A stretch of DNA of 23,925 nt, taken from positions 1 through 23,925 of IMG/VR virus record IMGVR_UViG_3300037963_002073; one strand, written 5' to 3'. This stretch comes from a virus. A program made the position numbers and the translations under genes. Of the stretch, positions 2,898 through 18,968 are shown one piece after another (within the stretch, counting starts at the first letter, position 1; every line of letters begins with the position of its first letter). The notes beneath the pieces were generated by a model. It did not search any database, was not told the DNA's origin, and saw nothing but the letters and a program-made list of their open reading frames with translations.

Positions 2898-3737
2898 ATG
2901 GCAAAATCATTTATAGATTACACAACGGCAGGTACAGGCACTAATGGCTTGGGCCAAACAACGTTTAGTTATGCAGGGCTAGAAGTTCTAAACGACAACG
3001 ATATAAAGGTCTTTGGCGAAATGGCTAACGGAACACAAGATGTCCTGACAATATCTTCAAGAGACACTGCTGCAAAAACAGTGACATTGTCGGCCACGCC
3101 TACCTCTGGTTATTATACTGCAAAAGTTAGAGTCTACCGATCGACAACAGCAAACGCACTTGTGGACTTTGTAGATGGCGCACGACTGACAGAGAGTGAC
3201 CTTGACACTGCTTACCGACAGGGACTCTTTGTGGCTCAAGAGGTTGCAGAAAACGCTTCTGGTGATGGAGCTTCTGGTGTTGCAGGGCTGACTGAAAACA
3301 ACCTTGCAGAATCTTTTTATAAAGAGGGAACCTTTACAGTTACAGCAACTCCTACTGGTTCTGGGACAGTAACCCTAGACACTGGTTTTAATACATTAAG
3401 TTACACTAAGATTGGTAATAGAGTGTTTGTATCTGGAACTTTAAAAGTTGCTTCGGTAAGTAATCCAGTGGGAGCTTTAAATCTTACAACGCTTCCTTAT
3501 ACTTCTTCAGACATTACTGATAAAGCAGGAGCTTCAATATCTATTTTAAACGCACAGAATCCTTCTGGCTCAAACATTGATGACTTTACAGGTTGGATAG
3601 GCGAGGCAAGTACGACGTTGTCCATATATTATGTTGAAACATCTGATGCTGCTAATAGCACTGGAAATTCTTCTGCTAATAAAATGCAAGCAAACACACA
3701 GCTTCATATTAATCTTAATTACATTACATCTTCCTAA
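2898..3737 (+). CDS. Short tail fibre with T7 gp17-type N-terminal anchor
   Basis: This 279-aa protein is a probable tail fibre or fibre adaptor. Residues 1 to about 120 follow the T7 gp17 N-terminal pattern: an FSYAGLEVL-type strand, then VRVYRSTTANALVDFVDGARL and TESDLDTAYRQGLFVAQEVAE, matching the gp17 region with 'LVDFTDGSILRAYDLN' and 'HVAEEA'. In T7 that region binds the tail. T7 gp17 is 553 aa, so this one lacks most of the shaft. Residues from about 145 (YTKIGNRVFVSGTLKV, LNLTTLPYTSS) look like a compact beta-rich C-terminal domain common in marine phage fibres, probably the receptor-facing or trimerising tip. It follows the internal virion gene by 21 bases and precedes the holin-like gene. 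There is no Shine-Dalgarno before the ATG. Confidence 0.8.
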   Translation: MAKSFIDYTTAGTGTNGLGQTTFSYAGLEVLNDNDIKVFGEMANGTQDVLTISSRDTAAKTVTLSATPTSGYYTAKVRVYRSTTANALVDFVDGARLTESDLDTAYRQGLFVAQEVAENASGDGASGVAGLTENNLAESFYKEGTFTVTATPTGSGTVTLDTGFNTLSYTKIGNRVFVSGTLKVASVSNPVGALNLTTLPYTSSDITDKAGASISILNAQNPSGSNIDDFTGWIGEASTTLSIYYVETSDAANSTGNSSANKMQANTQLHINLNYITSS

Positions 3738-3755: not shown

Positions 3756-3917
3756 ATGAACAATCAATTCACGACTCCAACAGTAGGAGTTTTAGGTCTT
3801 CTCGCAAATATAACTCTCAATGATGTAAATGAGCTTCTTGCAGTGCTTGTAGGTGCTGCAACGCTTATTTATATGACTTTAAAAATAATAAAAGAACTAC
3901 GCAAAAAGGATAAATAG
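3756..3917 (+). CDS. Small holin-like membrane protein
   Basis: The ATG at 3756 opens a 53-codon frame ending in TAG. The protein has a polar N-terminus (MNNQFTTPTVG), a hydrophobic stretch around residues 27-41 (LLAVLVGAATLIYM) and a basic tail (KIIKELRKKDK). This is the layout of a small class II or III phage holin. It lies between the tail fibre and the small terminase, exactly where T7 gene 17.5 (holin, 67 aa) lies. The likely role is membrane permeabilisation at lysis, letting the amidase encoded at 5955 reach the cell wall. The assignment rests on size, one membrane segment, charge and synteny, because holins have no conserved catalytic motif. No Shine-Dalgarno is seen. Confidence 0.65.
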   Translation: MNNQFTTPTVGVLGLLANITLNDVNELLAVLVGAATLIYMTLKIIKELRKKDK

Positions 3918-3921
3918 ATTT

Positions 3922-4176
3922 ATGGACGATAACGAAAATAGTAACTTACAGAAGATGCACATTCTCCAGGATCTTCTAACATCAGAGTTTATTGAAAGAA
4001 TAAAACTTGGAGACGCAGAACCTTCACTTCTAAACGCTGCTAGACAGTTTTTAAAAGACAACGGAGTGCATTCTTCTTTACAGCAAGATACTAAAATACA
4101 AGACCTTGTAAGTGTGTTACCTTTTAAAGAAGAGGAAGGAATAGATAGAGTAGCGGTTGCAAGTGGTGGAGAGTAA
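3922..4176 (+). CDS. terS: Small terminase subunit (DNA maturation protein A-like)
   Basis: This 84-aa acidic, helical protein (MDDNENSNLQKMHILQDLLTSEFIERIK, then LGDAEPSLLNAARQFLKDNGV) starts four bases after the holin stop and ends 18 bases before the large terminase. The helical pattern followed by 'PSLLNAARQFLKDNGV' is typical of small terminase subunits of T7-like and marine podoviruses; T7 gp18 is 89 aa. It would bind the concatemer and deliver it to the packaging motor. A weak AAGGA lies about 10 bases upstream. The call rests on size, composition, this motif and its position next to TerL. Confidence 0.75.
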   Translation: MDDNENSNLQKMHILQDLLTSEFIERIKLGDAEPSLLNAARQFLKDNGVHSSLQQDTKIQDLVSVLPFKEEEGIDRVAVASGGE

Positions 4177-4194
4177 ATATATATTATACGTAAA

Positions 4195-5877
4195 ATGTCT
4201 TCTAAAGATTCTTTACCCGAAGAGCTTAAAGACTTTCGCAACTTTCTATATCTCGTCTGGAAGCATTTAAATCTTCCTAACCCCACAGACATACAATATG
4301 AAATAGCCGACTGGATGCAGAATGGTTCTCGAAGAACTATCATCCAAGGCTTTAGAGGAGTTGGTAAGTCGTGGATATGTTCCGCTTACGTCGTTCATCA
4401 GTTACTTTTAGATCCTACAAAAAACATTCTAGTATGCTCTGCTAGTAAAACCAGAGCAGATGATTTCTCTACGTTTACCCTTCGGTTAATTCACGAGATG
4501 CCGTTGTTGGTAGACTTAATCCCTTCGCCTAATCAAAGATTTAGTAAGATAAGTTTTGATGTTGGTCTTGCTCCTGCAAGTCATGCTCCGAGCGTCAAGT
4601 CGCTAGGCATCTCCTCCCAACTTACAGGTAGCAGGGCTGACATCATAGTTGCGGACGATGTGGAGGTTCCCAACAACTCAGCCACGCAGGGTATGAGAGA
4701 CAAATTGGGGGAGCAGGTTAAGGAGTTCGAGTCCATATTAAAACCTGACGAGGAATCCAAAATTGTCTTTCTTGGTACACCACAGTGTGAAGACTCTCTT
4801 TACAACAAGCTAATGGAGAGAGATTACACCTCAAGTATATGGACTTGCAAATATATTACTCCCGAAAAAAATGAAAAAACATACTATGGGAGAGTGAGTC
4901 CTCTCTGCGTGTCTGAGAAAAAAGTAGGCAAATCTACAGAACCTTTAAGATTTAGCGACTTAGATTTAACAGAACGTGAGGTTAGTTATGGCAAGGCAGG
5001 ATTTGCTATGCAGTTTATGTTGGATAGTAGGCTGTCTGACCTTGATAGATATCCTCTCAAAGTTAACGACCTTGTAGTCATGGACATAGACGATGAAGTT
5101 GCTCCTGAGAAAGTAGTGTGGGCGCAATCTCCTGACTTAATATGGGGAGGTGATGTGCCAAACGTAGGCTTTACTGGAGACAGGTTCTACAGACCTATGA
5201 AGCAGGTAGGAGACATGGTAGAATATACTGGATCAGTGATGTCCATTGACCCTTCTGGAAGAGGACGAGATGAAACATCTTGGGCTATTGTAAAGATGCT
5301 TAACGGATATCTATACGTTCCCGATGCAGGAGGTATGCAAGGTGGTTATGGTGAAGACGTTCTAAAAGTTCTCGCCATGAAAGCCAAGAAGCACAAGGTC
5401 AACTACATCATTGTTGAAAGTAACTTTGGTGATGGTATGTTTAGTGAGTTGTTTAAACCTTTCCTAAACAAGATACACCCCTGTACAATAGAAGAAGTAC
5501 GCCACAGCATTCAGAAAGAGAAGAGGATCATTGACACCCTTGAGCCAGTAATGAGCCAACACAAGCTAGTAGTAGATCCAGAAGTAATTCGTAGCGACTT
5601 TAACTCAGCCCAAAACTACCCTCTTGAATCACAACTAAAATACCAACTTATCTACCAACTATCACGAATAACAAGAGACAGAGGAGCTATAACACACGAT
5701 GATAGACTTGATGCTCTTGCAATGGCTGTAAGCTACTGGGCAGAACAAATGTCCCAAGACGCAGAGAAAAAGATAAAAGATAGAAAAGAAGATTTACTGG
5801 ATCAGGAGCTTCAAAAGCTTGCTGACAACTACTACGGGAACAAACAACACCATAGAAATAGCCCTAACTGGCTTTAG
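4195..5877 (+). CDS. terL: Terminase large subunit (packaging ATPase and nuclease)
   Basis: This 560-aa product (T7 gp19 is 586 aa) is the packaging motor. A Walker A motif reads GFRGVGKS with K58. The Walker B region reads IIVADDVEVP, with D154-D155 followed by E. 'IVFLGTPQ' is a coupling-motif-like strand. The C-terminal nuclease domain shows SIDPSGRGRDE (D352), IIVESNFGDGMF, and THDDRLDALAMA (D502, D503, D506), the acidic metal-binding residues of the RNase H-like fold. It would hydrolyse ATP to pump DNA into the prohead and cut the concatemer at genome ends. It forms a cassette with the small terminase 18 bases upstream. The nearest Shine-Dalgarno-like GGAG is about 20 bases upstream, too far to be effective. 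Confidence 0.95.
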   Translation: MSSKDSLPEELKDFRNFLYLVWKHLNLPNPTDIQYEIADWMQNGSRRTIIQGFRGVGKSWICSAYVVHQLLLDPTKNILVCSASKTRADDFSTFTLRLIHEMPLLVDLIPSPNQRFSKISFDVGLAPASHAPSVKSLGISSQLTGSRADIIVADDVEVPNNSATQGMRDKLGEQVKEFESILKPDEESKIVFLGTPQCEDSLYNKLMERDYTSSIWTCKYITPEKNEKTYYGRVSPLCVSEKKVGKSTEPLRFSDLDLTEREVSYGKAGFAMQFMLDSRLSDLDRYPLKVNDLVVMDIDDEVAPEKVVWAQSPDLIWGGDVPNVGFTGDRFYRPMKQVGDMVEYTGSVMSIDPSGRGRDETSWAIVKMLNGYLYVPDAGGMQGGYGEDVLKVLAMKAKKHKVNYIIVESNFGDGMFSELFKPFLNKIHPCTIEEVRHSIQKEKRIIDTLEPVMSQHKLVVDPEVIRSDFNSAQNYPLESQLKYQLIYQLSRITRDRGAITHDDRLDALAMAVSYWAEQMSQDAEKKIKDRKEDLLDQELQKLADNYYGNKQHHRNSPNWL

Positions 5878-10253: not shown

Positions 10254-11267
10254 ATGGCTATACGAACAAAAGGCAGAAAATATTTAGCGGATTTTATGGT
10301 GAAAGGGGAACGCTATCGAAAACAATTTGAATCTAAAATTGAGGCAGAAGAGTATGAGGTTGGCATAAGAGCGAGATTGCATAGGGGTGAAAGGGTTGAT
10401 GCAGCGGTTATTTGTAAAGAACAGTTAACAGTTTCAGATTTGTTCGATAAAGTTATCTTGAATGTTTGGAAGGATACCCCTAACGAACCAACAGCAACGC
10501 ACCACTGTAACTTATTTAAAAGATTTTTTGGTGAGAATACTTTAGCGAGTGAGATAGATATTAATTACCTGGACAAGTTTGTTTTACATTGCAGGGAAAG
10601 GGGGAACGCACCTGCAACTATTAAATTAAAGCTTGCTACGTTTTCAAGGGCTTATTCTTTTGCTCTTAGTAGAAAGTGGATTGAGGAAAAACCTGCAATT
10701 CCAGAAGTAAAGCTAGGTGATAACAAAAGAAACGCATTTTTTAGTGAGCAAGATGAAAGTGATATATTAGATTGCCTTGAACATCTTGGTGAGGATTATT
10801 TTTCTGATTTTTTTAAGTGGCAAATAGACACTGGTATGCGACCAAGCGAGGCGAGAGCTATCTATTGCGGACAAGTGCAGTCAGATCCTATTCTCGGTTA
10901 CGTTGTTAATCTTCTGGAAACTAAGAACAGCAAACATAGAACAGTACCGCTAACCAAAAGAGCCTATGAAGCTTTTTTAAAACATAAAGACAAGGGTAGA
11001 GTCTGGGGTTATTGGACTAAGGAAAGGGTTAGGGCTGTTTGGAATAAAGTTAGAGCGTATTTAGGGCGTAAGGGAGATAAAGATTTTATTTTTTATTTAT
11101 GTAGGCACACTTGCGGTTCTCGTTTGGTTCAAAGAACAGGTAACATTAAACTAGCTCAAGAGTGGCTAGGTCATAAGAACATTGAACAAACAATGCGTTA
11201 CGCTTATCTTGATGGCAGTTCTTATTTAGGGGGGCTTGAGGCTTTACAGCAGCAGCACGACAAATAA
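10254..11267 (+). CDS. int: Tyrosine integrase
   Basis: This 337-aa tyrosine recombinase would integrate the phage DNA at a host attachment site. The N-terminus (KGRKYLADFMVKGERYRKQF, then ESKIEAEEYEVGIRARLHRG) looks like an arm-binding domain, followed by a core-binding domain to about residue 150. Catalytic residues: R196 in TGMRPSEAR, K224 in LETKNSKHRTVPLT, R284-H285 in YLCRHTCGS, H307 in WLGHKN, and nucleophile Y316 in TMRYAYL. The first histidine of the usual HxxR box is a tyrosine here (Y281-L-C-R). It is seven bases upstream of the RNA polymerase gene, so the two are co-transcribed. No tRNA 3' end is visible nearby, so the attP core is unidentified. Confidence 0.93.
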   Translation: MAIRTKGRKYLADFMVKGERYRKQFESKIEAEEYEVGIRARLHRGERVDAAVICKEQLTVSDLFDKVILNVWKDTPNEPTATHHCNLFKRFFGENTLASEIDINYLDKFVLHCRERGNAPATIKLKLATFSRAYSFALSRKWIEEKPAIPEVKLGDNKRNAFFSEQDESDILDCLEHLGEDYFSDFFKWQIDTGMRPSEARAIYCGQVQSDPILGYVVNLLETKNSKHRTVPLTKRAYEAFLKHKDKGRVWGYWTKERVRAVWNKVRAYLGRKGDKDFIFYLCRHTCGSRLVQRTGNIKLAQEWLGHKNIEQTMRYAYLDGSSYLGGLEALQQQHDK

Positions 11268-11274
11268 TTAAAGA

Positions 11275-13683
11275 ATGATTGAGCAAGACGATCTTAATGC
11301 AGAGATGACCGAGCTAGGTTTAGGGAGGTATAATGCGCAGGTTGAGAGTGCAAGAAAGTACGAGCAAAATGCTAGGAGTAAAGCAGGTCAGCGGTTAATG
11401 CGTGAGTTGCTTCCAAAGTTTTACGAGCGTGTAGAGGAAATGATTGCGAGAACAGAAGGCAGACCAACCAGGTGGCTTAACGATCTTAAAAATTATAGCG
11501 CAAAAAAGACTGCATTTATTGCTTTTAAAAATATTCTTAACTGCATTCCTTACAAAAAAACATTTACATCTACTGCATACAGCGTAGGTAAAGCGATTGA
11601 GTTAGAGATAAGATGTTCTTACCTTGTTAGGACAAATGAAAAGGGTGAGGGAATTATTTTGGGAGCCAAGCGAAGGGCAACGTCATCCCAAGAAAGGCAC
11701 ATAAAACTTTCAATGAGGCATGAGCAAGAGAAAGAAGGTAAAGAAGATTTTGAAGATTGGACTAGGAGAGATAGAATTTCTTGTGGTACAAATTTAATTG
11801 AGTTATTGCGGTGTTCTACAGGATTAATTGAGTACGTTTATATTCGAGAGAAGGGACGCAAACATCCAACAAGATTTGTGACACCAACAAAAGAAACTTT
11901 GGACTGGATAGAAAACTTTAACAACCATAGGTCACTATTAGATCCCTTTTGGTTGCCTATGGTAGAACCTCCTGATGACTGGACAAATGTTTGGGAGGGT
12001 GGTTATAGAACAGAAGGGACTAGCTTACCCAAGTTACCTTTTGTCAAAACTCCTGATGCTGAGTTCTTGCGTTCTTTAAAACCAAAGCAGCTTGCTGTAG
12101 CGATGGAAGCAGCCAACTTAATACAGCGTACACCTTGGGAAATAAATAACAGGGTGCTTGACGTTGTTCTTTGGGCTTGGGACAACAACGTGCCTGTAGG
12201 GACTACTGTAGTTAGTAAAGAAGACGAACCAGTACCACCTTTCCCTATCGATGGGGATGAAAACAAAGATATTAGAAATGCTTGGGCGCAGATAGCTGCA
12301 GGAGTACACAAGAGAAATACAGCAACCCGATCTAAACGCTTGTTATGTGCAAAGATAATACATTTAGCAGAGAAGTTTAGAAATGAAAGGTTTTGGACAC
12401 CAGTTAATGCAGATTTTAGAGGCAGAATTTATAGCATTCCAAGTTTTTTAAACGTACAAGGTTCTGATCTTTCTAGGAGTTTGTTGCAGTTTGAGAGATC
12501 AGAAAGGGTTAGGAATGACAGCGAAGCAAGGTGGCTGTTAATACATGGAGCAAACACTTGGGGATATGACAAGGTCACTTTAGACGAACGAGTGCAATGG
12601 GTACATGACAACGCTGAAATGATTCATAGGGTTGCTTTAGATCCTACAAGAAACACCGAATGGATGGATGCGGATAAACCTTGGCAGTTCCTTGCGGTTT
12701 GTTTTGAATTAAGTGAGTATCTGAAAGTAGGTAAGATAAAAACAAAGTTGCCTTGCTCTATGGACGCAACCAACAATGGCTTACAAATACTTTCTATTCT
12801 TACAAGATGTGATTATGGGTGTGTTGCTACTAACGTCATACCGACTACAAAACCTGCAGACATTTATGACGTTGTTAGGTTGAGAGTTGAAAGTTATATG
12901 AGGGAAGATGCGGAAAAGAATCATCCTTTTGCACAGGCTTGGATCGATTATGGGCTTACCAGGAGTACCTGCAAAAGACCAGTTATGTGTTACAGCTACG
13001 GACTTACACGCTACAGCAACAGGCAATATATTTTAGACTGGTTTGAAGAAAAGATTCATGCAGATAGTTGTCCTTCACCTTTTGATTTAAAGGAATACTA
13101 TAAAGCGGTACATTATTTAGCTGAAACAGTTTGGAAAGCTATTGAGGAGATTCTTGATTTACCTAAAAGATGTATGCACTGGTTCCAACAGGTTGCTAGG
13201 ATTGTCAGTAACGAACAACGACATCTAACTTGGGTGACTCCATCGGGGTTTGTTGTGAAGCAAGATTATAGAAAGTTAAAGGATACAAAAGTTTCTACAT
13301 GGATTACAGGGGAAGCTATTCATGTAAATTTTAATGAAGCTACGGAAAAGGTGTCACCACGTTCAATGTCGAATGGCGTGAGTCCTAACACAGTTCACAG
13401 TCTTGATTCATCTTTGTTGCATAAGGTAGTTGTAGCAGCAAACAAGAGAGGGATTTATGATTTCTCAATGATCCATGACTCGTTTGGAACACACAGTAAA
13501 AATTCAAATATACTTGCTGAAGTTATTAGAGAGCAAGCGGTAGAGATGTTCTCAAAAGATTTATTAAAGGATTGGCTTGAGCAAATCAAAGAGCAGAATC
13601 CTGATTTAGAATTTCCTGATCCACCAGAGTATGGACAGGCAGACATTTCTTTATTAAAAGATAGTCTGTATTTCTTTTCCTAA
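11275..13683 (+). CDS. T7-type single-subunit DNA-directed RNA polymerase
   Basis: This 802-aa enzyme (T7: 883 aa) would transcribe middle and late phage genes from its own promoters, probably the repeat at 6964 and 20057. Motif A contains D497 (CSMDATNNGLQILSIL), motif B has K567 and Y575 (RSTCKRPVMCYSYG), and motif C has D735 (MIHDSFGTHSKN); these match T7 D537, K631, Y639 and D812. A specificity-loop-like hairpin is near WVTPSGFVVKQDYRKLKDTK. Motif A departs from the usual DGSCSGIQHFSA, with NNG in place of CSG and I in place of the histidine. The ATG seven bases after the integrase stop has no SD, so translation may depend on the integrase ribosome. Confidence 0.95.
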   Translation: MIEQDDLNAEMTELGLGRYNAQVESARKYEQNARSKAGQRLMRELLPKFYERVEEMIARTEGRPTRWLNDLKNYSAKKTAFIAFKNILNCIPYKKTFTSTAYSVGKAIELEIRCSYLVRTNEKGEGIILGAKRRATSSQERHIKLSMRHEQEKEGKEDFEDWTRRDRISCGTNLIELLRCSTGLIEYVYIREKGRKHPTRFVTPTKETLDWIENFNNHRSLLDPFWLPMVEPPDDWTNVWEGGYRTEGTSLPKLPFVKTPDAEFLRSLKPKQLAVAMEAANLIQRTPWEINNRVLDVVLWAWDNNVPVGTTVVSKEDEPVPPFPIDGDENKDIRNAWAQIAAGVHKRNTATRSKRLLCAKIIHLAEKFRNERFWTPVNADFRGRIYSIPSFLNVQGSDLSRSLLQFERSERVRNDSEARWLLIHGANTWGYDKVTLDERVQWVHDNAEMIHRVALDPTRNTEWMDADKPWQFLAVCFELSEYLKVGKIKTKLPCSMDATNNGLQILSILTRCDYGCVATNVIPTTKPADIYDVVRLRVESYMREDAEKNHPFAQAWIDYGLTRSTCKRPVMCYSYGLTRYSNRQYILDWFEEKIHADSCPSPFDLKEYYKAVHYLAETVWKAIEEILDLPKRCMHWFQQVARIVSNEQRHLTWVTPSGFVVKQDYRKLKDTKVSTWITGEAIHVNFNEATEKVSPRSMSNGVSPNTVHSLDSSLLHKVVVAANKRGIYDFSMIHDSFGTHSKNSNILAEVIREQAVEMFSKDLLKDWLEQIKEQNPDLEFPDPPEYGQADISLLKDSLYFFS

Positions 13684-14669: not shown

Positions 14670-16252
14670 AAACAAACTTACCCTGCCCTAGTTGTGGTAG
14701 TAGTGATGCGCTTGCTTTAAACGCTGATGGAAGTACCAAGTGTTTTAGCTGCGATGAATTTATACCAAAAAAACACAACCAACCTATGCCAACAAACGCA
14801 ACAAAAAAAACTACCAACAATACTAATTTCTTAAAAGGACAAGTGTTACCTATCGCTCCTAGAGGGATACATAAGGACACCTGTAAAAAGTACAGTTATG
14901 AAATAGGAGAAAACGAAAAGGGAGAAATAGTACACATCGCCAATTACAAAGACAGCAACGGAAAGGTAGTTGGACAGAAGATTAGAGGAGCTAACAAAGA
15001 TTTTACAATAAGAGGAAAGATAAACGATACTTTTTATGGGCAGCACCTTTGGAAAAACGGAGGCAATAAACTTCTTGTAGTAGAGGGCGAACTAGACGCT
15101 TTAACAGCTTCACAGTTGCAAGCAAACAAATACCCTGTTGTGTCTATAAGCCAAGGCAGTAAGTCAGCAAAGAATCTTTTCAAAAAGAACCTAAAGTGGC
15201 TTGAAAGTTTTAACGAAGTCATTCTGATGTTTGACGAAGATAAAGCAGGTAGACAAGCGGTTGCTGATGTAGTTAACATTCTACCTCCTGGTAAAGCTTA
15301 CGTTGCTAAATTATCTGGCAAAGATCCTAACGCTTTACTCATGGATGGTAAGGGGGATGAAGTTGTTAAGGCTATGTGGGAAGCAAAGCAATGGAGTCCT
15401 GCTAACATCATCGATGGTGCTGATTTATTTGATAGGGTTTCTACAGCAAAGGTAAACGATTCTATTCCCTACCCCTTTGAAGGTTTGAATGAGAAGACTA
15501 AAGGACTTCGCAAGGGTGAGATCAGTTTGTTTTGTGCAGGTAGTGGAGTTGGTAAGTCACAGGTATGTAGGCAGATAGCTCACCACCTACTTACAACAAC
15601 AGATAAAAAAATTGGTTACATAGCTCTTGAAGAAAACATAGAACGATCAGCGCAGGGTGTTCTTGGTTTGGAGTTAGGCAAGCTTTTACATTTAGAGCCT
15701 TTTGAAATAGATGATAAGTATCTTGACGCTTACTATAAGACTGTTGGTTCTGGTAGATTTTTTCTCTACGACCATTGGGGGAGCCTCAACACTGACTTAC
15801 TGTTGTCTCATGTAAGATATATGGTACAAGCAATGGGTGTTGAGTACGTCGTGTTAGATCACATTAGCATTGTTGTCAGTGGCATGAATGAATCAGAGAT
15901 GGGTAATGAGAGAAGAGCCATCGATGTTCTTATGACAAAGTTAAGAGCTTTGGTTGAAGAAAGTAATTTTGCTTTATTGTTAGTCAGTCACCTTAAAAGA
16001 CCAGAAGGTAATCGAGGATATGAAGACGGACTAGCACCTAACTTATCAGCACTTAGAGGATCGGCAGCACTTAGTCAGTTGTCTGATATTGTTTGCGCAC
16101 TTTCTAGGAACTTACAGGGAGAGGACAAACACACCACTACTCTTAGTGTTCTTAAAAATAGATTTAGCGGAGACACAGGTGTGGCTTCACAACTCGAATA
16201 CTGCATACAAACAGGCAGACTAACTGAAACAGAACTCCCAGAAGAATTTTAG
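14651..16252 (+). CDS. Primase-helicase, T7 gp4 type
   Basis: From the ATG at 14651 the product is 533 aa (T7 gp4A: 566 aa); an in-frame ATG at 14624 would add nine residues, but 14651 gives the T7-like distance to the zinc site. Zinc ribbon: C12, C15, C31, C34. TOPRIM primase: E145 (VVEGELDAL), D195 and D197 (MFDEDKAG). RecA-type helicase: Walker A GSGVGKS (K302), VLDHISIVVSG, and GSAALSQLSDIVCALSRN. It would unwind DNA ahead of the polymerase and make primers. An in-frame Met46 just after the zinc ribbon mimics T7's internal gp4B start, but no SD precedes it. It ends in TAG immediately followed by the starts of the methyltransferase locus. Confidence 0.93.
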   Translation: MDTEFVETNLPCPSCGSSDALALNADGSTKCFSCDEFIPKKHNQPMPTNATKKTTNNTNFLKGQVLPIAPRGIHKDTCKKYSYEIGENEKGEIVHIANYKDSNGKVVGQKIRGANKDFTIRGKINDTFYGQHLWKNGGNKLLVVEGELDALTASQLQANKYPVVSISQGSKSAKNLFKKNLKWLESFNEVILMFDEDKAGRQAVADVVNILPPGKAYVAKLSGKDPNALLMDGKGDEVVKAMWEAKQWSPANIIDGADLFDRVSTAKVNDSIPYPFEGLNEKTKGLRKGEISLFCAGSGVGKSQVCRQIAHHLLTTTDKKIGYIALEENIERSAQGVLGLELGKLLHLEPFEIDDKYLDAYYKTVGSGRFFLYDHWGSLNTDLLLSHVRYMVQAMGVEYVVLDHISIVVSGMNESEMGNERRAIDVLMTKLRALVEESNFALLLVSHLKRPEGNRGYEDGLAPNLSALRGSAALSQLSDIVCALSRNLQGEDKHTTTLSVLKNRFSGDTGVASQLEYCIQTGRLTETELPEEF

Positions 16253-16254
16253 AT

Positions 16255-17124
16255 GTGGATACTTCCAAAACAATTATTAACCACCTTTCGCTCTGCTCTG
16301 GATACGAAGGTATCGGACTCGGCCTTAGAAGAATCTTCCCAAATGTTCGAGAGATATGTATGGTGGAGAGGGAAGCTTTCAACATCGGCAACTTGGTTGA
16401 CAAGATGCAAGAGGGAAAACTGGATCAAGCACCTCTTTGGACTGATCTTAGAACATTCCCTTTTAGAAAGTTTCGTGGATTGGTGGACATCCTCTCTGGA
16501 GGTTTCCCCTGTCAACCCTTTAGCTCTAATTCAAAGCGCAAGTCAGACAGAGATGAGCGACACCTGTATCCCTTCATCGAAAATGGAATTAGAGAATGTA
16601 GACCTTCCATTGTTTTCTTGGAAAACGTCGAAGGAATTATCAGTACAAAAACAAGTGAAGGCGAGCCTGTTCTCAGATATGTCCTCAGAAGCTTGGAGTC
16701 GTTGGGTTACATCGTTGAGGCAGGAATATTCTCTGCGTCTGAAGTTGGAGCATCCCACCACAGAAGGAGAGTATTTATTCTTTCCTACTCCAGACGTAGC
16801 ACAAGCTCAGAAAGTATCGAACAGACCAAACTACGGACAACTGGGACTAGCAAATCATCCTTATGTTCATGGCTCTTTTGTTCAGAGGGAGAAATCCAAG
16901 AAGGACAGAAAGGGGGAAGAGAAACCTTTCCATCCTCACCACGAAGCCCTCAAAAGAAATGGGAAAGACTACGAACTCTTGAACGCAGATTGGGTAGAGC
17001 AAATGATGGGACTTCCAACAGGGTGGACAGACTTCGGACTCTTGGGGCAGGAGTTGTCCCTCAAACAGCAGAACGAGCCTTCAGAATCCTCTCAAAAAAA
17101 TTAATAGAAAGAATAGAAAGATGA
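16255..17124 (+). CDS. DNA (cytosine-5) methyltransferase
   Basis: Starting at GTG 16255 (289 aa), the protein shows the family's ordered motifs: I, residues 11-24 (LSLCSGYEGIGLGL); IV, residues 82-90 (GGFPCQPFS, catalytic C86); VI, ENVEG (123-127); VIII, HHRRRVFIL (168-176); X, RVDRLRTLGAGVVPQTAERAF (about 256-276). It would methylate cytosine C5, probably to protect phage DNA from host restriction, as no partner endonuclease is present. The stretch between VIII and X (about 180-250), where the target-recognition domain should be, is short, Ser/Arg/Gly-rich and low complexity, and is overlapped by a well-formed protein in the +1-offset frame. The stop overlaps the DNA polymerase ATG (ATGA). 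Confidence 0.9.
   Translation: MDTSKTIINHLSLCSGYEGIGLGLRRIFPNVREICMVEREAFNIGNLVDKMQEGKLDQAPLWTDLRTFPFRKFRGLVDILSGGFPCQPFSSNSKRKSDRDERHLYPFIENGIRECRPSIVFLENVEGIISTKTSEGEPVLRYVLRSLESLGYIVEAGIFSASEVGASHHRRRVFILSYSRRSTSSESIEQTKLRTTGTSKSSLCSWLFCSEGEIQEGQKGGRETFPSSPRSPQKKWERLRTLERRLGRANDGTSNRVDRLRTLGAGVVPQTAERAFRILSKKLIERIER
16553..17104 (+). CDS. Overlapping second-frame protein within the methyltransferase gene
   Basis: In the frame offset from the methyltransferase, an uninterrupted frame runs 16253-17104 (283 codons). The first third looks like a by-product, but from about Met at 16553 or 16583 it reads as a real protein of 183 or 173 aa: LFSWKTSKELSVQKQ, SSEAWSRWVTSLRQEYSLRL, EYLFFPTPDV, then LLNADWVEQMMGLPTGWTDF. 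I associate this W-T-S-K, RQEYS, PTP and LN-WVE-MG-P-GWT series with phage cytosine-methyltransferase-linked proteins, from memory rather than a search. It may be a separate protein made from an internal start, a product of the ATG at 16253 that abuts the primase stop, or a frameshift partner supplying the missing target-recognition domain. The chosen start is provisional. Confidence 0.55.
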   Translation: MSDTCIPSSKMELENVDLPLFSWKTSKELSVQKQVKASLFSDMSSEAWSRWVTSLRQEYSLRLKLEHPTTEGEYLFFPTPDVAQAQKVSNRPNYGQLGLANHPYVHGSFVQREKSKKDRKGEEKPFHPHHEALKRNGKDYELLNADWVEQMMGLPTGWTDFGLLGQELSLKQQNEPSESSQKN

Positions 17125-18968
17125 AATACAAATACAATATACTTATTAGCGACATAGAAACGAACGCTATCAAAAACTGGCAGACACTTGAAGGACTTGA
17201 CAGGCTTCACTGCTTTACAGTTATAGATCCAACAAACAGCAACCTCTACGAGTTTAATACAACAAAGGAAAACATAGAAGAGGGGTTAAAAATGTTACAG
17301 GAGTCTGAGTATATTTGCTTTCACAACGGCATAGGCTTTGATGCTCCTGCTCTTTACAAATTGTATGGCATTAAGTTTAACAAGATTGTAGACACAATGT
17401 TGATGGCAAAGGTTCTCTTTCCAGACATAGCTACTAGCGATCACAAAAGAGAAAACTTTCCTAAAAAACTTATAGGTTCTCATTCGCTAAAAGCTTGGGG
17501 GATTAGAATAGGAGTACATAAAGACTCGCATGGCGAAAGCGAAGACTGGGAAACTTTTAGTCCAGAGATGCAAAGATATTGTAATCAAGATGTAAGAACT
17601 ACTTTTTCTTTATATAAACATTTGTTGGCTCACAGTGTTTCTCCTAAGTCTCTTGTTCTGGAGCATGAGTTTGCAAAACTTATTCGAGTGCAGGAAATGA
17701 ATGGCTTCCCTTTCGCTGTAGATAAAGCAAAGGATTTAGCAAAGAAACTTATGATGCGCAGAGTTCAGATAGAGCAAGAGATGCAAGAAGTTTTTCCTCC
17801 GAAGGTAGAACAAATGAAGAGTGTTACTGGTTGGAAGGTTGAGGTAGACGGCATCGAGTACACAGGTAAAACTAAGGTTGCACTGAAGGGTCAGCTAAAG
17901 AAGGCAGGACTAAAACAAAACATTAGTGATCTTGCAGAGAAGATGGGAAACAAAACTAAGACCATTCCTTTTAACCCTGGAAGCAGAGATCAAATAGCTG
18001 AAAGACTTATGGAGGCAGGATGGGAACCTGCAGCTTATGAAGGTAAGCGACCAGAAATAAATGAAACAGTTTTAAGAAACATTGGCACAAAGGAATCTCT
18101 TAAACTTCTTGAGTATCTTTTAGTGCAGAAGAGACTTGGAATGTTAGCAGAAGGTAAGCACGCTTGGCTTAGTGTTGTGACTGACGAAGGAAGGATTCAT
18201 GGTAGCGTTAACACAGCAGGAACTATCTCTGGAAGGTGCAGCCACAACTCTCCAAACCTTGGACAAATTCCTGCAACAAGATCAGAGTATGGAAAGGAAT
18301 GTCGTGAGTTGTTCATTGCTCCAGAAGGAAAGGTTCTTGTAGGTTCTGATGCTTCACAGCTTGAGCTTAGATGTCTTGCACATTACCTTTTTGCTTATGA
18401 CTCTGGTAAATATGTTCGGGAGATTCTTGAAGGAGACATTCACACAGTCAACCAGAATGCCGCAGGTCTACCAACCAGGGACTCAGCAAAAACCTTCATC
18501 TACTCACTTATATACGGAGCTTCTAATTCTAGGTTAGGAGAGTCAGTTGGTAAGGGCATGAAAGAAGGAGCAAGACTTAGGAAATCTTTTATGACCAAGA
18601 TGCCCGCTTTTAAAAAACTTTTAACTGACGTTGAAAGATCAGCAGAAAAGAACGGACACCTAACTGGGATAGATGGAAGAAAGATAAACGTAAGATCAAA
18701 ACATTCGTTACTTAACTTTCTCTTACAAAGTTGTGGTGCTATAGTGATGAAGCAGAGTCTTATTGAATTTGCTTTGATGGCTAAACATCCTTACGAAATG
18801 CACGCCAATGTCCACGACGAAGTTCAGTTTTCCTGTCTTGAAGAACACGCACAGGATCTTGGAAGAACTTTTGTAGCTGCTATAGAGAAAGCAGGGAAAA
18901 CACTTAACATGAAATGTCCTCTCGATGGGGACTACAAGATAGGAAATAACTGGGCAGAGACACATTAA
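17121..18968 (+). CDS. DNA polymerase, PolA family, T7 gp5 type
   Basis: This 615-aa replicative polymerase (T7 gp5: 704 aa) has a 3'-5' exonuclease domain with D11 and E13 (ISDIETNA), CFHNGIGFDAPAL and YCNQDVRTTFSLYKHL. The polymerase domain shows motif A with D410 (GSDASQLELRC), motif B with R453, K457 and Y461 (RDSAKTFIYSLIYG), and motif C with D566 (NVHDEVQFSC). Tyr occupies the position of E. coli Pol I F762 (T7 Y526). It starts in a four-base overlap with the methyltransferase stop, with purine-rich GAAAG just upstream. It works with the gp4-type helicase and gp2.5-type SSB in this cluster. Confidence 0.95.
   Translation: MKYKYNILISDIETNAIKNWQTLEGLDRLHCFTVIDPTNSNLYEFNTTKENIEEGLKMLQESEYICFHNGIGFDAPALYKLYGIKFNKIVDTMLMAKVLFPDIATSDHKRENFPKKLIGSHSLKAWGIRIGVHKDSHGESEDWETFSPEMQRYCNQDVRTTFSLYKHLLAHSVSPKSLVLEHEFAKLIRVQEMNGFPFAVDKAKDLAKKLMMRRVQIEQEMQEVFPPKVEQMKSVTGWKVEVDGIEYTGKTKVALKGQLKKAGLKQNISDLAEKMGNKTKTIPFNPGSRDQIAERLMEAGWEPAAYEGKRPEINETVLRNIGTKESLKLLEYLLVQKRLGMLAEGKHAWLSVVTDEGRIHGSVNTAGTISGRCSHNSPNLGQIPATRSEYGKECRELFIAPEGKVLVGSDASQLELRCLAHYLFAYDSGKYVREILEGDIHTVNQNAAGLPTRDSAKTFIYSLIYGASNSRLGESVGKGMKEGARLRKSFMTKMPAFKKLLTDVERSAEKNGHLTGIDGRKINVRSKHSLLNFLLQSCGAIVMKQSLIEFALMAKHPYEMHANVHDEVQFSCLEEHAQDLGRTFVAAIEKAGKTLNMKCPLDGDYKIGNNWAETH

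Follow-up and report, generated by a model that had tools for sequence, protein, structure and literature searches.

Does a stretch of phage DNA that encodes a cytosine-5 DNA methyltransferase also encode, in a second frame of the same strand, another protein, and is that protein part of the same enzyme? The question is raised by a locus in IMG/VR virus record IMGVR_UViG_3300037963_002073, of which positions 1 to 23,925 were analysed (23,925 nucleotides, hereafter the window). A preliminary description, made from the sequence alone, had reported a methyltransferase frame (here alpha) overlapped by a second frame (here beta) that is open for 283 codons in the +1 register, and both open reading frames were found to be as it described. 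The analysis makes it very likely that two frames of one strand, covering nearly the same DNA, encode the alpha and beta subunits of a single cytosine-5 DNA methyltransferase. The heterodimer, its activity, the start site and the specificity are inferred, and there are no expression, activity, peptide or complex data.

The phage is a T7-like podophage, with genes for RNA polymerase, endonuclease I, primase-helicase, DNA polymerase and integrase in the window. Both frames are read on the forward strand: beta from an ATG at 16253 to 17104 (283 aa, +1 relative to alpha) and alpha from a GTG at 16255 to 17124 (289 aa), the two starts lying two bases apart. The stop codon of the upstream helicase gene abuts beta (TAGATGTG) and the TGA of alpha shares bases with the DNA polymerase ATG; the pair is therefore tightly packed in the replication cluster. 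The tyrosine integrase gene (10254-11264) adjoins the T7-like RNA polymerase gene (11275-13680), which suggests a temperate T7-like phage. The features of the locus, all on the forward strand, are as follows.

16240-16246, forward: candidate ribosome-binding site AGAAGAA, common to both starts (seen as sequence; function inferred)
16253-16257, forward: overlapping start codons ATGTG, ATG for beta and GTG for alpha (identical ATGTG in 40 viral loci)
16253-17104, forward: beta, putative recognition subunit, +1 frame, 283 aa
16253-16507, forward: N-terminal part of beta, sharing its DNA with alpha motifs I-IV (residues 21-60 at pLDDT 84-93)
16255-17124, forward: alpha, C5 methyltransferase catalytic subunit with motifs I-VIII and X, 289 aa (PF00145, 8.9e-28; HhaI fold, E 6.6e-14)
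16285-16326, forward: alpha motif I (LSLCSGYEGIGLGL)
16498-16524, forward: alpha motif IV, GGFPCQPFS, with the catalytic Cys
16621-16629, forward: alpha motif VI, ENV
16745-16978, forward: beta variable region, presumed target-recognition domain (hypervariable in relatives, substitutions dominated by beta, probably exchanged in locus L007)
16756-16782, forward: alpha motif VIII region, HHRRRVFIL
16979-17035, forward: beta motif IX (LNADWVEQMMGLPTGWTDF), by sequence pattern
17032-17091, forward: alpha motif X (LRTLGAGVVPQTAERAFRIL), a confident helix in the model

Alpha meets the criteria for a C5 methyltransferase through a profile match, in which the Pfam C5 methylase family PF00145 covers motifs I-VIII (8.9e-28), and through the presence of motifs I, IV (PCQ), VI (ENV), VIII and X. 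In the AlphaFold model of alpha, motifs I-VIII are confident and match the HhaI fold (E 6.6e-14), most of the segment between motifs VIII and X has very low confidence (residues 183-188, 194-221 and 241-258 are below pLDDT 50), and motif X is confident again. Motif IX is absent from alpha, which thus does not combine a recognition domain and motif IX in one chain; a segment with the sequence pattern of motif IX was found in beta. Several claims of the preliminary description can be judged from these data. The assignment of motifs I, IV, VI, VIII and X to one frame held, and most of the VIII-X segment of this frame, described there as low-complexity and too short for a normal recognition domain, is the part modelled with very low confidence. 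The AT-rich setting held in part (GC is 38.6% in the window versus 44.5% at the methyltransferase locus). The claim that motif X and MGLPTGWTD share DNA failed, since MGLPTGWTD (17006-17032), which is part of beta motif IX, and motif X (17032-17091) abut.

The length of the open +1 frame was not reproduced by synonymous shuffling. Across 20,000 such shuffles of alpha, the open +1 run averaged 103 codons and reached at most 278, always short of the 282 seen in the phage, and shuffles with the phage's own codon usage gave a mean open run of 66 codons and a maximum of 190. Amongst the other large genes of the window, the longest wrong-frame open run was 141 codons, and the earlier statement that no other wrong-frame ORF exceeds 148 codons held for the listed ORFs. 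The 148-codon ORF itself is antisense (3897-4343, minus strand) and lies between a tail-fibre-like gene ending at 3737 and a terminase gene starting at 4195.

More than 200 related loci, viral and microbial, show the two-frame layout. For the viruses, 141 different alpha loci were gathered, taken from IMG/VR and from named phages; nearly all of the scorable ones have a long +1 ORF, and most have a recognisable motif IX. Over alpha residues 76-255 of these loci, 6 stops were observed in the +1 frame versus approximately 430 expected from synonymous shuffles, and over residues 16-75 the ratio of observed to expected stops was 0.16-0.31; stops in the +2 frame were near expectation. Public bacterial and archaeal genomes contributed 72 loci with beta, every one (72/72) reading it in +1 relative to alpha, and the plasmid beta loci likewise overlap alpha in +1 (3/3). 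The cellular loci were retrieved via beta motif IX and show that beta accompanies alpha, not the fraction of C5 enzymes that are split. In each of fifteen NgoMIV-type single-chain enzymes, the +1 frame is interrupted by 4-17 stops. Alpha and beta are each conserved and selected at the protein level, with the motifs divided between them. Stops in the second frame of relatives, or the lack of independent homologues of its protein, had been named beforehand as grounds for refutation, and neither occurred.

The third codon position of alpha is the second codon position of beta. In independent pairs of loci, fourfold-degenerate alpha sites differed at 3.5% under beta motif IX, at 29% in the N-terminal region, at 24-37% in the middle and at 47% (95% interval 30-62%) in the alpha-only tail, where beta has ended. 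In single-chain C5 enzymes (15 of NgoMIV type, pairs of 60-90% identity), 67-71% of fourfold sites differed. At loci where beta starts internally, the N-terminal fourfold sites were less constrained (42-54% different, with few sites). Synonymous constraint extends throughout the overlap, and the emphasis previously placed on the second half of beta held only in part, since the first half is constrained too.

When the window was compared with the two distinct relatives closest to it, substitutions were divided unevenly along the overlap. In the recognition region and motif IX, 17 changes altered alpha and were silent in beta versus 2 of the reverse kind, and upstream of it the counts were 21 versus 52 (Fisher p 1.9e-6). 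Thus, alpha dominates the first part of the overlap and beta the second. Per-site tests are inflated by shared ancestry. The recognition segment is hypervariable, with an identity of 0.23-0.30 between alphas that are 60-80% identical overall. When locus L007 was compared with the window over 15250-17600, the flanking helicase and polymerase genes were 92-100% identical, and identity fell to 44-92% in the methyltransferase locus (16290-17050), with the lowest values in the recognition region. This divergence is likely to represent a recent cassette exchange, as expected of a swapped specificity domain. The variable segment evolves as beta and not as alpha; the recognition role of beta is itself an inference.

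Searches with beta were largely uninformative. No Pfam or NCBIfam family was found for it, neither a sequence search of the PDB nor a PADLOC search gave a significant match, and Foldseek comparison of its model with the PDB returned noise; against BFVD, Foldseek matched one uncharacterised phage protein (3.7e-7). PHROGs connect beta with unnamed families and with phrog_1008 (DNA methyltransferase), which was matched by all of the beta proteins scanned (63/63). The C-terminal LNADWVEQMMGLPTGWTDF is near-invariant among relatives and similar to motif IX of C5 enzymes, and a direct profile comparison of beta with a single-chain family picked out the motif IX-X region weakly (E 0.03). The AlphaFold model of beta reaches pLDDT 84-93 at residues 21-60, about 92 in a helix at approximately residues 145-160 and 74-79 at motif IX, with low values elsewhere; residues other than 21-60, 141-165 and motif IX are poorly modelled. 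The confident N-terminal model could possibly reflect, in part, conservation imposed by alpha. Part of the conservation of beta does follow from alpha, as where SWKT lies opposite ENV, and it is due to such alpha-derived conservation that the single-chain enzyme L244 weakly matches the beta profile. Separately, in phage C75C1 (L008, 1474-2916) a beta of about 460 aa is fully open opposite a 480-aa alpha, and its recognition region contains several repeated W-x-TP segments, perhaps multiple recognition modules.

A connection between the two frames is provided by motif X. In six lineages (L009, L039, L042, L043, L117 and L123) motif X is in beta instead of alpha, in the same frame 3' of motif IX; therefore alpha and beta behave as parts of one enzyme. 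Composites of alpha up to motif VIII followed by beta matched PF00145 at positions 4-318 of 324 for L123 (4-170 for alpha alone) and up to 315 of 324 for L117 (up to 163 for alpha alone). The match of the alpha/beta composite from the window was no longer than that of alpha alone.

In the proposed enzyme, SAM would be bound by alpha, which would also contribute motif X and the PCQ/ENV catalytic centre; motif IX and the target-recognition region would come from beta, read in +1. Between them, the two chains would match the domain set of a one-chain enzyme like HhaI, with the order of motifs along the DNA unchanged (I-VIII, recognition region, IX, X). One ribosome-binding site is predicted to serve both chains, with a choice between the overlapping ATG (beta) and GTG (alpha), and such shared initiation would keep alpha and beta in matched amounts. 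The enzyme would most likely methylate phage DNA and protect it against host restriction; this anti-restriction role is inferred because the methyltransferase is an orphan located within the replication cluster of a phage and no restriction enzyme was found among the neighbouring genes scanned. The preliminary description had offered, amongst other meanings, a true overlapping pair whose second frame supplies target recognition in trans, and this reading is supported by the conservation of the open +1 frame, the suppression of synonymous change, the dominance of beta in recognition-region substitutions and the shifting location of motif X.

Similar divisions are known from characterized enzymes. 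M.EcoHK31I (YGGCCR; Lee, Kam and Shaw 1995), a biochemically known and similarly split enzyme that the preliminary description had missed, consists of a large polypeptide with motifs I-VIII and X and a small one with motif IX (PMC3404938). The coding sequence of its small polypeptide likewise lies within that of the large one, in a different frame. The window shares with it both this division of motifs (motif IX being assigned to beta by sequence pattern) and the location of beta in an alternative frame of alpha. The window differs in that beta is nearly co-extensive with alpha, with starts that overlap (ATGTG) or lie 4 nt apart in relatives, and in that the recognition region is apparently in beta, whereas the recognition domain of M.EcoHK31I was predicted in the large subunit (PMC3404938). 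By analogy, and without any claim of common descent, the window pair may work as M.EcoHK31I does. M.AquI (CYCGRG) is likewise a C5 enzyme in two chains divided after motif VIII, with IX and X in its small subunit (PMC3404938). That last criterion is unmet in the window, where motif X is in alpha, and is met in the six lineages with motif X in beta. Complementation occurs between fragments when the break falls after motif VIII and before the recognition domain (PMC3404938, PMC5944983). Single-chain enzymes (HhaI; the NgoMIV type, e.g. L165) share the catalytic domain fold and motif order of the pair, but hold the recognition region, IX and X in one frame and have the interrupted +1 frame noted above.

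The arrangement of the starts bears on how much of beta is translated. ATGTGGATA, in which ATG is the beta start and the overlapping GTG the alpha start, is strongly kept in the clade of the window. Amongst viral loci, 40 have ATGTG and a further 40 have NTGAATG, where the beta ATG follows the alpha start by four bases, and the beta ATG persists at loci where the alpha start has moved. A Shine-Dalgarno-like word lies 5' of the beta start in 80 of the 115 viral loci with full-length beta. Considering viral and cellular loci together, the beta start is on or beside the alpha start in 175/212, and an internal beta start is forced in 35/212. On a quickly built tree, 9 changes are needed between full-length and internal forms of beta, and the window falls within a clade of 36 rows that are all full-length. 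A bolder reading takes these observations as one joint claim: that one ribosome-binding site serves overlapping starts (ATGTG or NTGAATG) for two subunits of one enzyme, which are co-extensive over nearly their full length, that the first approximately 75 residues of beta form a folded domain sharing its DNA with the catalytic core, and that the start arrangement sets the subunit ratio. We lean towards this claim, by a narrow margin.

The alternative that survives best retains the two-subunit enzyme as proposed, with a shorter beta made from an internal codon (e.g. ATG 16553 or 16583) and the upstream open frame untranslated. In its favor are the forced internal starts, the annotation of beta from an internal start in Paenibacillus phage Bloom and the small size of the second subunit of M.EcoHK31I (PMC3404938). 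We consider it unlikely, however, as the beta ATG is on or beside the alpha start at most loci and is retained where that start has shifted, the N-terminal fourfold sites are constrained (29% versus 47% in the tail, and 42-54% at the few sites of internal-start loci), and beta residues 21-60 are modelled confidently.

A second alternative, also raised in the preliminary description, is a frameshifted enzyme, in which a +1 ribosome shift after motif VIII joins the catalytic half of alpha to the recognition region of beta in one chain. The single-chain motif order along the DNA and the filler-like appearance of the matching alpha segment speak for it, but two shifts in opposite directions would be needed to reach motif X in most loci, and beta's own conserved start and its open, constrained frame across the whole catalytic half would be left unexplained. 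The option is unsupported and very unlikely. It is similarly improbable that beta is genuine but separate in function (e.g. a counter-defence protein) and no part of the methyltransferase; the absence of interaction data and of a Pfam or NCBIfam family for beta would allow this, but alpha has neither motif IX nor a plausible recognition domain, beta seems to have both and is always found with alpha, and motif X moves between the two. Finally, short genes can keep overlapping frames open by chance, but a by-product of alpha codon usage or composition, or an assembly artefact, is all but excluded by the failure of all 20,000 shuffles, the more than 200 independent loci, the synonymous constraint and the missing open +1 frame in single-chain relatives.

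For the two-subunit enzyme, existing annotation is uneven. Both overlapping ORFs are annotated as genes in phage Bloom (BLOOM_56/BLOOM_57), but phrog_1008 and the Bloom genes are named just 'DNA methyltransferase' with no subunit relation given, and the Bloom beta is called from its internal start. Two Synechococcus phages have different frames called at the corresponding locus (L014 1478-2593 and L239 1471-2610): Ssp-JY39 (PP438429) lists beta, as a hypothetical protein, and Yong-M2-251 (OM868082) lists alpha, as a methyltransferase. A Sphingomonas plasmid record lists beta alone, in a gene table known to be incomplete. Nothing relevant on overlapping methyltransferase genes of phages was found in the literature searched, the coverage of which was partial, and absence is unproven. 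A split C5 enzyme was already known from M.EcoHK31I; what differs here is the near co-extensive beta, the coincident or adjacent starts, the recognition region apparently in beta, and an occurrence that is widespread yet poorly annotated.

These results indicate that gene callers often retain one frame, leaving the catalytic or the recognition subunit missing from annotation, and predictions of methylation or anti-restriction made from alpha alone would mislead. The likely recognition domain shifts from alpha to beta, a question that work on M.EcoHK31I had left as a prediction. The locus also offers a natural, testable example of long same-strand dual coding with co-located starts. The two-polypeptide layout, known from few enzymes (M.EcoHK31I, M.AquI), is a common form in a large methyltransferase family of phages, bacteria and archaea, and, if the bolder reading is true, it would represent a deeply conserved, widespread and little-recognised type of prokaryotic gene overlap.
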